From: Nymphaea colorata
Lineage: Eukaryota; Streptophyta; Magnoliopsida; Nymphaeales; Nymphaeaceae
Direction: 5' to 3'
NCBI RefSeq assembly: GCF_008831285.2
Contig: NC_045143.1
Coordinates: forward strand, 18,129,655 to 18,193,654
Length of the DNA: 64,000 nucleotides
Shown here: positions 6,190-64,000 of the stretch, piece by piece
How the letters are laid out: each line of letters opens with the position of its first letter
How positions within the stretch are numbered: position 1 is the stretch's first letter
Notes under the pieces: model-generated
What the model was told of the DNA's origin: nothing
Database searches by the model: none
What the model saw: only the letters and a program-made list of their open reading frames with translations
Program-made: the position numbers and the translations under genes

Positions 6190-7289
6190 GAGTTAGCATA
6201 TTAAAGAACTCGTGCTAGCTAGGGTTTGGTATGTGGGATTTCCTGTTAAAATGTGTGATTTCAACAAAAAAAAAAAAAGATCAGAGTAGCACTGATGATC
6301 TCAAACAATCAGTATTTTTTGTGATCATGGAATCTTTGACATGTTCTGGGTTCCAAATCTACTCTTGTACATTGACGATTGCTTTCGAAATTCAAATCTA
6401 GTATAGCCATAACGAATCGCTATGTTCAATAGTTTGGGTCCTAATTCTCTTCCTCCACCTCTAACGTATGTAAGTTTGGAGTCAACCGCAAGTGTTCTGT
6501 GTGAACTTTATGCAGGCATCCTTCACATGTTCACTGTTTAGGCAGAGGTTTATCAGAATGATCACCCTGAATCGGCCAAACTGATTCCTTCGGGTGGCTG
6601 ATTCAAGAGTGCAACCTTTCCGTCGGTTTTTAATATCTGCAAACATTAGAAGTTTTTGTCGTTCATTAATTCTTTTAGGATTTTCATTTCTTTTTTCAGA
6701 AAGAACGATTTTGTAAATATTTTTTTCCAGAGTTCAGCTGAATCAGCAAAACTTAAGATCATGAATCCATTTCATAAAACCACTTTTACAACATTAACGG
6801 AAAGCAACACTCGTGGGAATAAAATATTTTTACAACACTGGGTTTAAATGGTTTTAATTGATCAGATTTCACCATGCACATGGGGTCCGGTTTGGATCAA
6901 TTTTTGGTACGAGTTGTATGGAACCGCTTGGATCATGCAATGCAGAACCCTTGAGGTACTCAAATTGATCGGATCAAACTCGGCCTCTCTCTCTCTCTCA
7001 CACACACACAAAGACACAGAGACCATGAATCTCAAGGTATGCAGTTTATTAAGAATGTGAAGCATGGTATACAGCCAATATAAATTAGCTAGAACAGAAT
7101 GTCCATACAAGACCAGAGAAGGCCCGAGATATGAAACATATGCTAAGAAGAAGAAGAAGAAGAAGAAGAAAAGAAAGCACTAGTTTGAGGGTTAATCTCC
7201 GGAAAAGCTGAGGACATATAGGTCAGTACGTGTTTTACTTTCCAGGACGGAGGAACAGGGGAGGAGGGAGGCAGCAGGGGGTCGTCTTC
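6190..7289. other. Intergenic, 3' side of the CLE gene
   Basis: No gene seen. Contains (CT)n(CA)n at 6984-7012 and an (AAG)8 tract at 7147-7170. The segment just below 7290 would hold the CLE 3' UTR on the minus strand. Confidence 0.5.
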
Positions 7290-7878
7290 CTAAGGGAGGG
7301 GGCGCCCAAAGGGTGACCTGTTATGGTGAAGAGGGTCCGACCCAGTGGGCACCTGCCTCTCCGACCAAGCGATCTCCATGCACGATGGCCCTCTGTTGGC
7401 CGAGAAGCAGGAGGATGGCCGAACCACCGCTCTCTTAATGCAAAAATAGAAGGAATCACGTTAACGAGTGCTGATATTCACTTTCCATGAACAAAAGACG
7501 AGCAGAAGAAGATCAGAAGCTCATTAGATTTCCTTCGTTTCATAAAATTTCCTCGACGAACTTCACTAACACCCGAGCGCCGAAGGAGAGAAAACGAGAG
7601 AGAGAGAGAAAGTGATGTACCTGCTGTATGTTCACCCGATTATCTTTCATGTCTGTGGGCAGCAAACCTGCTGGAAAATGGGATGAAATGGTGTCGGTCT
7701 TCATCTAGAAAGAAATAAAGAAGAGAGAGAGAGAGAGAGAGAGACCTTGACCGGTATGAGAGATGGGTGCCTGGACAAGAGCGGCAACCATGCTTGACGG
7801 CGGGGACAGGAAGACCATGGCCGCCCATATCGCCGTGAAGGCGGAAAACCACACCGGAAAAATGATTCCCCTCTCCAT
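7290..7878 (-). CDS. CLE40: CLE peptide precursor, CLE40/CLV3 type (three exons)
   Basis: Precursor of a secreted CLAVATA3/ESR-related peptide; CLE40 and CLV3 peptides act on LRR receptor kinases to limit stem-cell activity in meristems. Exons on the minus strand: 7878-7752, 7670-7621, 7433-7290, with GT-AG borders and consistent phases (1, then 0), giving about 106 aa. Residues 1-32 (MERGIIFPVWFSAFTAIWAA...) form a signal peptide. Exon 3 carries the CLE motif RQVPTGSDPLHHN at residues 85-97 (bases 7320-7358), followed by a nine-residue tail RSPFGRPLP and TAG. From family knowledge, RQVPTGSDPLHH is the Arabidopsis CLE40 core, and a three-exon layout is typical of CLV3/CLE40 but unusual for other CLE genes. 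The central region is variable, as expected. The intron-1 acceptor reads cagcag, so 105- and 106-aa forms are possible. Expression is not shown here. Confidence 0.85.
7320..7358 (-). other. CLE motif (mature peptide region)
   Basis: Encodes RQVPTGSDPLHHN. The conserved positions are Arg1, Val3, Pro4, Gly6, Asp8, Pro9, His11 and His12. Pro4 is commonly hydroxylated in mature CLE peptides, together with the residue at position 7; here position 7 is Ser, as in CLE40, rather than Pro. Confidence 0.88.
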
Positions 7879-7884
7879 CCCCAA

Positions 7885-7907
7885 ACTCTCTCTCTCTCTC
7901 TCTCTCT
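7885..7907. repeat. (CT)n tract in the CLE leader
   Basis: A CT run (GA on the coding strand) lies immediately upstream of the CLE ATG. A second GA run at 7722-7743 lies just inside intron 1. Both are common leader/intron microsatellites and have no further visible role. Confidence 0.7.
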
Positions 7908-7959: not shown

Positions 7960-8638
7960 CATTATATATGCATTAGATATTTATATATATAAACATTATG
8001 ATGATAAACCTTTTATGAAAAATAAGATTAATATATATGATGATAAACCTTTTATGAAAAACAAGATTAATGTATAATATTCTGTTATAACTTATGTATT
8101 ATTATTATTTAAGCTATCTTCTTATTTTTTATATATTTAATTTATTGATTTTAGTTATTATTTATTGTAACGGTGCATCATGGATATATAGCTGTCTCCG
8201 TGAACACATGCAGCGTAACGCTGCACGCTCTCCCTACGTTTCCCGCAGGACAGACGCGGCCCGTAAACGTACCTTTCCAAACTGCCCCTCCAACTACTCG
8301 GAATTGGCGACAGGACTCGGGCGTTCTAAGCGGGATATTTAGGGGTAGTTTAGTCTTTAAGAAAAGGCACGTGCGTCATATAACTGGGTAAGGGGCTGGC
8401 TCGCACGCGCGAGATTTTCGCCACGCGGGACGATTTGGAGGCACGGCGTCTCATCCAATTACCATGTTAGCCTTACGGTGCCGTTGCAACATGGACTTGA
8501 TATTTGGGATCGTTTCGTTATCTTACCTGCGCCTTCTTTTACCTTAAGCCAACACGTAAGGTCGTTTTTGTAAATGCAACATTGTGAGGGACAGGCGGAG
8601 TGGTCCAAATTTGATCCCATTAAACCAATCTGCCGGTA
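7960..8638. other. Intergenic, upstream of the CLE gene
   Basis: Holds a short direct repeat (tatgatgataaaccttttatgaaaaa at about 7997 and 8036) and a GC-richer stretch at 8200-8460 that includes a CACGTG G-box core at about 8369. This is the presumed upstream region of the minus-strand CLE gene. No coding gene seen. Confidence 0.4.
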
Positions 8639-9879: not shown

Positions 9880-10491
9880 TGTCTAGGATTGGTCGGCAAC
9901 CCTCAATACCTGCTTTTAGTTTTCGTTTTCATCCCATATGATTAGTTACAGCTCCATACAATCTGTTCTCACCACCACATTGCGCCTACGAATGCTCTTG
10001 AAACATACTACTTGAATGATGTCCTTGTGGCTTTGAACATTTCTGATCGGTGCTTCACGCTTGGCATAAGATAACTAAAGGCCTCAAAGACTTTATGTTG
10101 GGATTTCTCCTCCTTCGACTTCACTGACGAAAAAAACATCTGTTGGCCCATTCTCCAGACCCGTTTGAAAACTGAAGCCGCCGAAGGCTCTGTCATCCAG
10201 TCACGCACAATTTGGTTCCTGCTTCACCATAGTTTCCAACAAACTATTGGGAGAATCGCATGCCAAACAACTATGGTCCTACCAAAACTTTCTCTCCGCT
10301 ATTCTCCAGACTTGGTTAGTGAGCTCACAACCAACAAAACCATGATGGTTGTCCTCCTCGGCCTTGTGGCACAGGAAGTACATGTTGGCAACTGAGATTC
10401 TATTCTTTTGGAGACGATCAGAGGTTAACAATCTGTGATGGCTGGCTAAGAAAGACGTCCAACGACCTGTTGCCGGAAATAATAAACCCAT
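9880..10491 (-). pseudogene. LINE (non-LTR retrotransposon) remnant, zf-RVT region
   Basis: On the minus strand 10491-10279 translates to a typical zf-RVT segment found after the reverse transcriptase of plant LINEs: TGRWTSFLASHHRLLTSDRL, then CHKAEEDNHHGFVGC and NQVWRIAERKFW (the C-x-x-C...H...C...VW pattern, with the first CxxC pair eroded to F-L-C). Downstream the frame is broken by stops; 10208-10008 still reads like the continuation. No RT or endonuclease domain is present in the window, so this is a 5'-truncated, degenerate copy. The 3' boundary is uncertain and may reach about 9600. Confidence 0.6.
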
Positions 10492-12065: not shown

Positions 12066-12283
12066 AGATGGTTTGACTCTGCTGGCTTTCTGAATTAGTG
12101 AACAATAAGATTTCCCTGCAATCTATAATCCCACATAGACACACCCAACTGCACCCAGCCTGAGATAATTGGTAAGATGGTTTTACTCTGCTGGCCTTCT
12201 GAATTAGTGAACAATAAGATTTCTCTGCAATCTATAATCCCACATGGACACACCCAACTGCACCCAGGCTCAGATAATTGGTC
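12066..12283. repeat. 109-bp tandem duplication downstream of EIL3
   Basis: Two copies, 12066-12174 and 12175-12283, of a unit containing agatggtttgactctgctgg and gcaatctataatcccacat. They differ at only a few positions (for example tttgactc/ttttactc and catagac/catggac), so the duplication is fairly recent. It lies about 125 bp beyond the EIL3 stop, in its probable 3' UTR or flank. Confidence 0.85.
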
Positions 12284-12406: not shown

Positions 12407-14263
12407 TTATGCTCCAAAGTACTGAATGAAGTCATCATCGAGTGAAAAATCAAGATCAGCTGCATCAAGTGAACCAGATCCTTCAGCCCCAAAGTCGAAT
12501 GGGCTACTGAAACCATAATCCAGCGACAAGCCACCAAGGGGAGAACCAAATCGACTTTCAGCAAGTTTATCAGGTACATTGTGGAGGACATGAGAATCCT
12601 TAACTAAATGATGCACATCCGTAGAAGCCTCATTTTGACTTCCATCTAGTGTCAAAACATTAGCAAAAACTGGACTCTCATCGTGCATTTCCATAACATC
12701 CTGCCTGACCTCACCATTGATTCCAACAATATCAGGATGTTCACAACCATGAGGGTACTCATACCTCCTGGAGGAACTATATGGATCAAATGAACGTTTA
12801 GATTGCACGGACCTGTCCTTGGCTCCAGCATATAGCAAGGGATGGCCATCAACAAACATGCTGTGAGCAACTGCATTTTCAGAATACCCAGAACCATTCT
12901 GCATCCTTGGTTCTGTGGACAGATGAGGATCTCCTCCTTCCTGGGACCTTGGTGCTAAGTTAGAGCTAACATCATGCTCAGGGACGGGTACATGAAACTC
13001 TTCATTCTCAAGACTTGCACGGTTCATGTCAGGAATGGGGTTTTCTGGTTCCTCTTGGACATCACCACTCCAAACAACTATCGCTAATTGCTCAGCTGGT
13101 TGAGAAGCCTTGCGTGCCCTCTTTCTTCTTGGTCCATCAGAGGAACTCTTGTCATGCGATTTTTCATTTGCCATTTCCTGCCTGGAGCTTTGTTTATCAT
13201 TCGAGTTTCCATTTTGGACACAAGTATCATCATCTGCTCGAGAGTTTCTTCCATCATCCTTGGAAGATGCAGAACATGGTCCATCTTCACAGACGTCCAC
13301 ATCATAATCACTGTTGCTACACATGGAACCTTCTTGTCTTTCCCTGTTACCACTAGCCGGTGTACCCGTCAAACCAGAAGTTCCGTTCTCGACACATAGT
13401 GGCTTAGTGAGCAATTCTTCTCTGCTCAAAACTGCCAACCAAATTGAACTCTCTCTTGCAGTCATCTTGTCTTGCAGACACTTCGACTGCCGGACATGCC
13501 TCTTGATTTTTGCAATGTCAGGAGACATATGCTTGATCACAGCAGTTAGGACTCCCACTTTCCACACTTTCTTTAGATCGTGCGGTTTCTTATATGGTGG
13601 CGGTTGATTGATTGGGAGTCCGGACTGTATCCACCAGTCTTCGTTTCCTGTAGGCCACCAAGGTGGGGGAATACCCTTCTCCAATGGAAACTTCCTCTGG
13701 GGTGGATCACAATGCTGCATCAGTGACGACAACAAGGAACCCAAGGTTGTATCTTGGAGATCCTGGAGACTGTGAAAAACACCCTTACCATCACCATTTT
13801 TAGCTGCGAGATTGTCAGCTTCATATTTCGCTATTGCAGCAGGTCCATTTTTATCAAACCTTACCTTCTCTTTCCACCATGCTCTTATGTTATCAGAAGC
13901 ACCGCTGACAGGCTTCCCCTTGTCTGGAATGATTCCATACACAAAGCCTCTAACTTTGCACACTTCCATTAGCTTCAACATATACTTGAGTATACCATCT
14001 TGGGCTCGGGACATCTTTTTCCGTGTTGCCTGATCAGAGGTTTGTTTGTACTTGGACTTTTCAGCCTGAGTGACTGCACTACTTTTCTGCCTATCTTTGA
14101 TCCTCTTAAGCTTGATCCTGTCCTTCCACATCCGCCTCTCCAATTCATCTGGCTCAATTTCCTCGTCACTCACCTCATTCTCCGGTAAGTTATTCCTCAT
14201 GTCCTCAATATCAATATCATAGTTTTCTCCTAATCCCGTGGCAACTAAAGCAAGCTGCTCCAT
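12407..14263 (-). CDS. EIL3: EIN3-like transcription factor, EIL3/SLIM1 type
   Basis: Plant-specific nuclear transcription factor of the EIN3/EIL family; the EIL3 (SLIM1) branch controls sulfur-limitation responses, whereas EIN3/EIL1 act in ethylene signalling. A single 618-aa exon. Order: acidic N-terminus (about 20-40), [11 protein letters not shown] (39-49), basic stretch [20 protein letters not shown] (81-100), [18 protein letters not shown] (108-125), [20 protein letters not shown] (129-148), Pro/Trp block [18 protein letters not shown] (187-204), [20 protein letters not shown] (225-244) and [16 protein letters not shown] (257-272). These form the EIN3 DNA-binding core and look intact. 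The choice of EIL3 rests on [25 protein letters not shown] and the acidic C-terminus ending [11 protein letters not shown] basic cluster RRKRARK lies in the mid C-terminal half. The ATG directly follows an acceptor, so the first coding base is also the exon start. Confidence 0.95.
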
Positions 14264-19411: not shown

Positions 19412-19480
19412 TGAATGCATCAGGTCTCGAGCGAACATCAGTTTGTGCCTCATTTGCATGCACGACATTTTGTGAATAAA

Positions 19481-19744
19481 ATTGGACATCGGGTAGGGGT
19501 ACCCAGGCATGGGCCCAAAATTAGGCACTGGGTTGGTTCGAGTAAGATTGGACATCGGGTAGGGGTACCCAGGCATGGGCCCAAAATTAGGCACTGGGTT
19601 GGTTCGAGTAAGATTGGACATCGGGTAAGGGTACCCAGGCATGGGCCCAAAATTAGGCACTGGGTTGGTTCGAGTAAGATTGGACATCGGGTAGGGGTAC
19701 CCAGGCATGGGCCCAAAATTAGGCACTGGGTTGGTTCGAGTTGG
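19481..19744. repeat. 66-bp tandem repeat, four copies
   Basis: Exact-period units begin at 19481, 19547, 19613 and 19679. Only single-base differences are seen (for example gggtaggggt against gggtaagggt), so the array is young or homogenised. Each unit includes the palindromic core ggggtaccc and atgggcccaaaatta. The 66-bp period is a multiple of three and no stops occur in several frames, which explains the long spurious frames on both strands. Confidence 0.95.
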
Positions 19745-51227: not shown

Positions 51228-51764
51228 TAAAGAAAAACATAGATTAAGAGACTAACGTCTGGTTTAACGTGGTTGGGTGTAAACTCACACCTACGTCCAC
51301 AAAGGGCAGCTATCGATCTTAATGTCGATAGAGCTGGATCTTTCTTCTATTTATAATAGAATTACATGCATCATCGTTTCCTGAATTACAGGATGTATAT
51401 CGATTTTTATAGGAGGAAACAATATCTAATTTACAGTTGATATTTCCTTGTTTAGTTGTTGCACCTATTTGTTTGGAAATCTTTGTCTCTTGTAGTAACT
51501 GCACCCATTGTCTTGGCATTACTTTCTTCATACGGTTGGCTAGTGTATATTTCCTTATCGATGTTATTTCCATCGTGAATATTACTGTTTCCATTGTCAT
51601 GACTGACTGGTGTTTCCTTCTTGAGAAGATTACAATCGTTACTGTCATGGCTGGCTGGTGTTTCTTTCTTGAGATGATTACAATCGTTGTTGTCTTCATT
51701 AGCATTTCCTTCATTGGCATGGCTAACTGGTGTTTCCTTCTTGATTCCCCTACTATTGCCTTTA
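51228..51764 (-). repeat. 3' LTR of the TA...TA copia element
   Basis: 537 bp. Aligns throughout with 58434-58971. Contains a short tandem repeat (tggtgtttccttcttgag units) encoding KKETPxSH on the minus strand. Confidence 0.9.
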
Positions 51765-58433: not shown

Positions 58434-58971
58434 TAAAGAAAAATAGACAGTAAGAAACTAACACCTGGTTTAACATGGTTCAGTGTAAACTCACACCTAC
58501 GTCCACAAAGGGCAGCTATCAATTTTAATGTCGACTGGATCTTTCTTCTATTTATAATAGAATTACAGGCATCAACGTTTCCTGATAGGATGTATATCGA
58601 TTTTTAGAGGAGGAAACAATATCTAATTTATAATTGATATTTCCTGTTTAGTTGTTGTGCCTCTCTGTTTGGCAGATGTATCTTCGTCTCTTGTAGTAAC
58701 TGCCTGTTCACCCATTGTCTTGGCATTACTTTCTTCATACGGTTGGCCAGTGTATATTTCCTCAACGATATTATTTCCATCACGAGTGTTAATGTTTCCA
58801 TTGTCATGACTGATTGGTGTTTCCTTCTTGAGAAGATTACAATCGTTACTGTCATGGCTGGCTGGTGTTTCCTTCTTGAGATGATTACAATCGTTGTTGT
58901 CTTCATTAGCATTTCCTTCATTGGCATGGCTGACTGATGTTTCTTTCTTGATTCTCGTGTTATTGCCTTTA
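58434..58971 (-). repeat. 5' LTR of the TA...TA copia element
   Basis: 538 bp. The inner end touches the primer-binding site at 58433. The outer end is followed directly by AAGTA, the target duplication. Confidence 0.9.
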
Positions 58972-62659: not shown

Positions 62660-62823
62660 TTTCAGTTTTCCCTTTCTCGCCTCCTCCTCCTTTCTTCGCT
62701 CCCCTTCCTCTCTCTGTTGTCCATCAACCGTTTTCTTCCTCTTCTTCGTCTCCCATTCGATTGAACGCCATTCTCCTCTGAGACGACGCGCATTTCCCTT
62801 CTCCCTTCCCCTGTGCGGTGAAA
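62660..62823 (+). promoter_or_regulatory. CT-rich 5' leader of the TBCC-domain gene
   Basis: Strongly pyrimidine-rich stretch (ctcctcctcctttcttcgctcccc and similar) ending at the ATG at 62824. No clear TATA box upstream. Confidence 0.5.
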
Positions 62824-63312
62824 ATGAACGAGACGGCCCCGGCGCCTTCGTCGCCGCTTCTGCACGCCCGGCGGGAGCCCTTCGAGTACGGTCTCCTCCC
62901 ACTCTCCAAGCTCATCTTCTCTGACGGTACCCAAACCCTAGCGCCGCTTCGTGACGAGCTCCTCCGTCGATCCTCCCCATCAGACGGCCCCCACGGTCCA
63001 TGCCGCGTTGACGCCACCGCGATCAGCGAGGTGCTCCAGATCTCTCCGGAGAACGCGAACCTCGTCCTCGACACCTTGGCCTCGGTCTTGCCTGATCCCC
63101 TTGATGGCAAGGCCGCTGATCCGCTTACGACCGCCAAGGCTGCCGAGGTCGACGTGATGGGCGCGAATGTCTTCGACTTGATCCTCTTCCTTTACATTCA
63201 GTCATACAAGAGACTTCTACCCAGGACGCACAAGGATTCGGCGGCGGTGAACGACGTTTGGCCATCGACCTCCGCGTTCGACGGATACTTGTCCGTGCTT
63301 TCTCCCCTTCAG
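62824..63312 (+). CDS. TBCCD1: TBCC domain-containing protein 1-like, first exon (partial)
   Basis: First 163 codons of a plant protein of the tubulin-binding cofactor C/C-CAP domain type, whose animal relative acts at centrosomes. Starts MNETAPAPSSPLLHARREPF and EYGLLPLSKLIFSDGTQTL; conserved VLQISPENANLVLDTLASVL, VFDLILFLYIQSYKRLLPRT, then HKDSAAVNDVWPSTSAFDGY and LSVLSPLQ, where a gtcaga donor follows at 63313 in phase 0. The TBCC domain itself would be encoded beyond the window. The in-frame GTG at 62818 is not used as start because an ATG with a normal context follows. Assignment rests on recalled similarity of this N-terminal region. Confidence 0.75.
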
Positions 63313-64000
63313 GTCAGATATGTTTGCCTTCTCTTTTTTTCTGTTTACTTCTTTTCTTTAGGGTTCTTAGATCCTCATTTGGTTTGTTTTCTTTTATTTC
63401 TGCTGTTACTAGTAATTGCGAGAAAATGGCAATGCCTTTGCAGTTGCCGGGTAAATATTTTGTTGAATTTGACGACTGCATGCGCGTATCTCGGCAAGTT
63501 GTTGGCTAAATGAAATCAGATACCGATGTGAATAATCGCGTGCAGGAAAGCCAGCCTACCTCTGCATACAGAATATATGCAAATTTCCGGAGGCACTAAT
63601 TCCTGAAATAAGGCAGTTAGATAGATTTTAGCAGCTTTATTGTACTAGCAGGATCTGTAACATATATTATGTATTAGTTGGAAGCTTAGCTGATTGAATT
63701 ATGTTCGCCGACCTAAACTTGAAATCATAGAGGCGGTATACAGCCAAAGTGAAGGTGGATAGGATGTTCACGGAAGTCTCTTATTCTTCCGAGTTAAGTT
63801 GCTATATTTCTTACCATATATAAAGATAGTAAACTGCAGGTTAACAGGATCTACTTCCTCATTGTGTGAGCTATTTCTTACCTAAAAGTTCGTACCGATT
63901 TACAATTATTAAAACTCCCAATTGCTTGTGAAATTGCAGGGGTGCTAGCGATTCGGTTGAATTGGTGGTTGTTTAAACATTTGATACGTAGACATACAAT
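63313..64000 (+). other. First intron of the TBCC-domain gene
   Basis: Begins gtcagatatgtttgcc. No plausible second exon was recognised before the window ends. Confidence 0.6.

Follow-up and report, generated by a model that had tools for sequence, protein, structure and literature searches.

The window analyzed here, a 64,000-nt stretch of DNA, carries a putative gene for a small secreted peptide of the plant CLE family on its minus strand (Table 1). The start codon lies at 7878–7876, and translation of the window placed the string RQVPTGSDPLHHN at 7358–7320, nine residues (RSPFGRPLP) before a stop codon at 7292–7290, as the first-pass annotation had stated. That annotation had described a three-exon CLE40/CLV3-type gene, and the observation as a whole was confirmed: motif, tail, stop codon and in-frame GT-AG exons are all present on the minus strand. 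The sequence itself shows the motif, an N terminus that is hydrophobic and lacks charge, an extension at the C terminus, and a structure that can be read as three open exons. We put the probability of a protein-coding gene belonging to the CLV3/CLE40 group at roughly 0.9.

Table 1. Coordinates of the predicted CLE gene and its candidate flanking signals in the window
Feature	Position	Strand	Basis or remark
TATA-like elements (TATATA from 7991, 7989 and 7987; TATAAA from 7985)	7980..7991	minus	Position only; about 110 bases before the ATG
(AG)11 tract, presumed 5' UTR	7886..7907	minus	Sequence
Exon 1, start codon and signal-peptide-like stretch MERGIIFPVWFSAFTAIWAAMVFLSPPSSMVAALVQ	7746..7878 (ends at 7752 in the earlier reading)	minus	Uncharged run, hydropathy, donor scores
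Intron 1, opens with a CT-repeat tract	7668..7745 (78 nt with donor 7745)	minus	Acceptor AG 7669/7668
Exon 2, part of the variable spacer, (G)LLPTDMKDNRVNIQQ	7621..7667 (starts at 7670 in the earlier reading)	minus	Translation and splice-site scoring
Intron 2, 187 nt, CAG|GTACAT ... TTAAG|A	7434..7620	minus	Splice-site scoring
Exon 3, rest of the spacer, CLE motif, tail RSPFGRPLP and stop	7290..7433	minus	Translation
CLE motif, predicted mature peptide RQVPTGSDPLHH(N)	7320..7358	minus	12/12 identity to CLE40; sole match in the window
AATAAA, candidate poly(A) signal	7045..7050	minus	About 240 bases past the stop

The first 12 residues of RQVPTGSDPLHHN are identical (12/12) to the Arabidopsis CLE40 peptide as printed in PMC5538625, in agreement with the earlier reading of the motif as that of CLE40. 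Among the 15 non-CLE40 Arabidopsis peptides printed in the same source, CLV3, CLE8 and CLE18 matched the window 12-mer at 9/12 positions and the others at eight or fewer. The three differences from Arabidopsis CLV3 are Q2 for T, T5 for S and S7 for P. In the 107-residue version of the protein, the 12-mer RQVPTGSDPLHH occupies residues 86–97, near the C terminus.

A chance origin of the string is extremely improbable. The 36-base degenerate code for RQVPTGSDPLHH had one exact match in the 64,000 nt of the window, none in 100 dinucleotide-preserving shuffles of the window, and none in the viral and prokaryote contig collections scanned. These collections are non-plant and may omit records close to the source genome, so the absence of the motif from them serves as a control for chance and not as a survey of relatives. 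A relaxed six-frame scan of the window for CLE motifs likewise returned a single full match, RQVPTGSDPLHH itself; the best of the other 12-mers among the matches listed reached only 6 of 10 key positions. A full-text literature search returned no paper for the RQVPTGSDPLHHN string and two for VPTGSDPLHH; absence from the library searched says little.

The exon–intron structure was only partly as first described. The earlier model joined 7878–7752, 7670–7621 and 7433–7290 by GT-AG introns with matching phases to give a 106-residue protein; such a reading does exist, although its border between exons 1 and 2 is not the best available. Splice sites were ranked with approximate plant consensus frequencies as weights, which makes the ranking rough. 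By this score the earlier exon set (6.14) came fifth among the in-frame models, and the two top models used intron-1 donors at 7751 (9.45; 105 aa) and 7745 (9.21; 107 aa), both with the acceptor AG at 7669/7668. That acceptor was matched or beaten by just 0.4% of AG sites on the minus strand between 200 and 20,000; it is probably the better one, which would leave the earlier exon 1/exon 2 border a few bases off. Adopting the better-scoring borders alters the protein by just one or two residues, and across the border choices the predicted precursor measures 105–107 aa.

The two intron-1 donors, GT 7745/7744 and GT 7751/7750, scored nearly equally (0.37 and 0.61) and are weak, with 11% and 13% of GT sites scoring as well. 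The score leaves the donors tied; we describe the 7745 version by judgement, its exon ending in the common AAG|GT. This version encodes 107 aa: MERGIIFPVWFSAFTAIWAAMVFLSPPSSMVAALVQAPISHTGQGLLPTDMKDNRVNIQQRAVVRPSSCFSANRGPSCMEIAWSERQVPTGSDPLHHNRSPFGRPLP. The earlier model and both top models share intron 2, with donor 7620 and acceptor 7435/7434; the donor was equaled by 1% of GT sites and the acceptor, an ordinary one, by 20% of AG sites over the same minus-strand interval. The motif frame had been described as open only within a 144-bp exon. It in fact spans 56 codons between stops (7460–7293), slightly beyond the exon at 7433–7290. With the earlier borders, exons 1, 2 and 3 have GC contents of 58%, 48% and 63% compared with 42% and 41% for the introns. 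Third-position GC of the gene is 0.69.

A splice pattern of this kind is not proof of a gene. With introns of at least 70 nt, 184 three-exon GT-AG models and a further 18 two-exon models keep the frame, and splicing alone was therefore rejected as evidence. If intron 1 is retained, the frame stops inside it and no CLE peptide is made.

In the predicted precursor, a run of 46 residues after the initial MER of the spliced protein contains no D, E, K or R, and the best 15-mer of this N terminus has a hydropathy of 1.81. This is below our first, arbitrary threshold of 1.9; the corresponding criterion (15-mer hydropathy of at least 1.9 and no charge at residues 6–20) was passed by 17 of the 412 ATG frames in the window and missed by the CLE gene. 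An uncharged run of at least 30 residues together with a hydropathy of at least 1.81 was found in 7/412 frames, with cutoffs set post hoc from the CLE gene's own values. An N-terminal signal peptide is plausible. The 107-residue protein is small and cysteine-poor, with two cysteines (1.9%); the figure for soybean and bean CLE proteins in PMC4526924 is 1.3%. Searches for wider similarity were negative within their limits: no Pfam family was returned for the 106-residue version at E values up to 1, no solved structure in the PDB matched the 107-residue version at E values up to 10, and none of the 13 pattern-matching stretches in viral contigs was confirmed as a protein relative by tblastn.

Comparison with known genes supported the earlier interpretation as a CLE40/CLV3-type peptide gene. 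In the account given in PMC8594942, CLE40 and CLV3 have two introns at very similar positions and the other Arabidopsis CLE genes are intronless; the three exons predicted here agree with that layout, to which the split-gene structure had been likened. Parallels come from radish (Brassicaceae), whose RsCLE40, compared on its 12-mer and intron count, has the same 12-mer and two introns like AtCLE40 (PMC4895270), and from soybean, in which the CLV3 genes are split into three exons and their product is 105 aa long (PMC3871822). Every Group I gene (CLV3 and CLE40) in PMC4526924 is described as having a predicted intron, and the table there lists a truncated pseudogene, GmCLE40b, without one. Introns were also reported in further CLE genes, 7/15 in tomato and 9/44 in rice (PMC4195864), so the presence of introns is not by itself diagnostic of the group.

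The 12-mer is followed by a 10-residue C-terminal extension, NRSPFGRPLP. The earlier reading took such a tail as CLV3/CLE40-like and unlike most CLEs, and it is common in this group according to PMC4526924, which reports a C-terminal extension for 32.5% of the CLEs of soybean and bean vs. 83.3% of the intron-bearing ones, predominantly in Groups I, II and VI. In precursor length (105–107 aa) the gene differs from the legume CLE40s reported, with 82 aa in soybean CLE40a and 114 aa in common bean, and agrees with CLV3, which has three exons in Arabidopsis and soybean, precursors of 104–105 aa in bean and soybean and a C-terminal extension in its orthologs. Motif, tail and length of the window gene fit the published description of the CLV3/CLE40 group, and a fitting set of introns can be modeled.

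Arabidopsis CLE40 (AT5G12990) is the closest counterpart by peptide, with an identical dodecapeptide and two introns, the number modeled here. We take Arabidopsis CLE40 to have a short tail after the motif as well, and its residue 13 to be K, compared with N here. The grass FON2 and FCP1 motifs presumably differ from RQVPTGSDPLHH. PMC7917188 assigns the FON2/CLV3-like and FCP1 genes to Group 1D of Goad et al.; one of its legends speaks of a CLE40/FCP1 subgroup.

An unexpressed relic of a CLE gene, in which the motif exon has stayed intact by luck, is quite unlikely. The weak intron-1 donors beside a simple CT repeat would suit a relic, as would the soybean CLE40 copy reported as a probable pseudogene in PMC4526924; against this, the start codon, the open frame in three exons, the motif and the tail are all intact, and the frame is kept when the two introns are spliced out. 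In favor of a coding gene of this group, the candidate TATA-like elements and AATAAA signal lie at distances that plausibly fit it, the exons are richer in GC than the introns, and an intact EIN3-family gene is close by. The locus is probably a real, working gene of the CLV3/CLE40 group, a known family, and ordinary in kind.

Several repeats surround the gene. A 39-base unit occurs twice in tandem at 7997–8076, in its presumed promoter. On the minus strand, the (AG)11 tract at 7907–7886 has its complement in a (CT)11 tract that opens intron 1 (7744–7722), and a further CT tract lies near the start of intron 2 (7609–7596); 4 of the 12 GA/CT tracts of at least six units in the window fall at 6985–7907. 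Folded locally, the 5' UTR (AG)11 and the intron-1 CT tract gave a z score of -3.67, with 0/200 shuffles as good. In a 906-nt fold, the CT tract of intron 2 was the main partner of the AG tract, pairing with 13.0 of its 22 bases against a mere 0.9 for intron 1, and shuffling the order within the two tracts cost only about 5 kcal/mol (-281.5 vs. a mean of -276.5, SD 2.4, n = 30). A pre-mRNA hairpin between (AG)11 and the intron-1 CT tract is not claimed, the intron-1 pairing being lost in the longer fold.

An intact EIN3/EIL transcription factor gene sits on the minus strand 4.5 kb from the CLE gene, at 14263–12410; its Pfam match is EIN3_DNA-bd (E = 5.2e-128) and its third-position GC 0.40. 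This neighbor bears on whether the CLE gene could be the functional counterpart of CLV3/FON2, the shoot or floral stem-cell-limiting signal, rather than of CLE40, with the CLE40-type peptide as a retained ancestral form. EIL and CLV3-group locus numbers given in the literature are neighbors in both Arabidopsis (EIL1 AT2G27050, CLV3 AT2G27250) and tomato (EIL Solyc06g073720/073730, SlCLE9 Solyc06g074060). The comparison is not like for like, however: the gene here is nearer to Arabidopsis EIL3 (102/127 identical residues) than to EIN3 (98/129) over the solved domains. None of the EIL genes tabulated for soybean lies next to CLV3: chromosome 12, which carries CLV3a, has none in the table, and on chromosome 13 the nearest is 2.5 Mb from CLV3b (40.87 vs. 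43.40 Mb), in a table whose accompanying passage leaves the assembly unstated. An old EIL–CLV3 linkage is hinted at by the Arabidopsis and tomato positions and is a weak lead.

A CLV3/FON2 role is also compatible with the statement in PMC8594942 that CLE40, expressed in the stem-cell domain, can complement clv3-2 fully. Since CLE40 can replace CLV3 there, the peptide alone cannot distinguish a role in the root or periphery from one in the central zone; expression does. The 12-mer itself speaks the other way, being identical to CLE40 at 12/12 positions compared with 9/12 for CLV3. Weighing these points, we hold a CLV3/FON2 role to be credible but less likely than not. A more far-reaching reading, in which the plant lies outside the eudicots and the gene exists as one unduplicated copy of the type ancestral to CLV3 and CLE40, with an unchanged CLE40 peptide, appears unlikely; if true, it would mean that the original flowering-plant meristem ligand was CLE40-like and that CLV3 is a derived copy.

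For a gene of the CLV3/CLE40 group, the mode of action can be sketched from established CLE biology. The 105–107-residue prepropeptide would enter the secretory pathway and lose its signal peptide, and proteases would then free a 12–13-residue peptide, RQVPTGSDPLHH(N), whose prolines may be hydroxylated. CLV3 carries a sugar chain on hydroxyproline 7. Position 7 of the predicted peptide is Ser, as in CLE40, so a CLV3-type sugar chain on hydroxyproline 7 would be impossible there. The peptide would bind CLV1/BAM-type LRR receptor kinases of neighboring cells and tune a WUS/WOX-type stem-cell regulator in a root or shoot meristem.

Stem-cell number in shoots and roots is controlled by genes of the CLV3/CLE40 group, whose short, split form makes them easy to miss; soybean CLV3 was missing from the first soybean gene set (PMC3871822), a precedent for gene callers overlooking members of this group. 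A correct model would provide a candidate meristem-size gene for this plant and a data point on exact conservation of the CLE40 peptide. Of 474 dicot CLE motifs surveyed in PMC7552357, only 18 were reported as common to monocots and dicots, so the clade of the host decides how notable the CLE40 match is. The third-position GC of the CLE gene (0.69) and of the start of the frame at 62.8 kb (0.76), which exceeds that of the EIN3-family gene (0.40), is a weak hint of a monocot.

Rfam and tRNA searches of the window gave no match, and Pfam scans (E up to 0.01) covered six frames at about 1–29.9 kb, three plus frames at 62–64 kb and three minus frames at 39–44 kb. A zf-RVT match at about 10306–10458 on the minus strand is, judged by its domain, a retroelement remnant, and FAR1, MULE and SWIM matches at about 28.0–29.5 kb on the same strand are, by the same token, remnants of a transposase-like locus of the Mutator-like/FAR1 type; the positions of both were derived from residue numbers. 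A GC-rich block at about 39–44 kb (52–57% GC, between stretches of about 31–41%) had no Pfam match in its three minus-strand frames at E up to 0.01. A long open frame at 62782–63513 on the plus strand, with a third-position GC of 0.76 at its start, had none in the plus frames of 62–64 kb at the same threshold; it presumably resembles TBCC-domain protein 1 of plants and is truncated near the window end. Well-conserved tandem repeats occur at 12066–12282 (109-base unit, two copies) and 19477–19741 (66-base unit, four copies). One 48-base tandem repeat unit is present at both 51595–51688 and 58802–58895, 7 kb apart and inside similar minus-strand frames, which suggests two copies of one repeated element.
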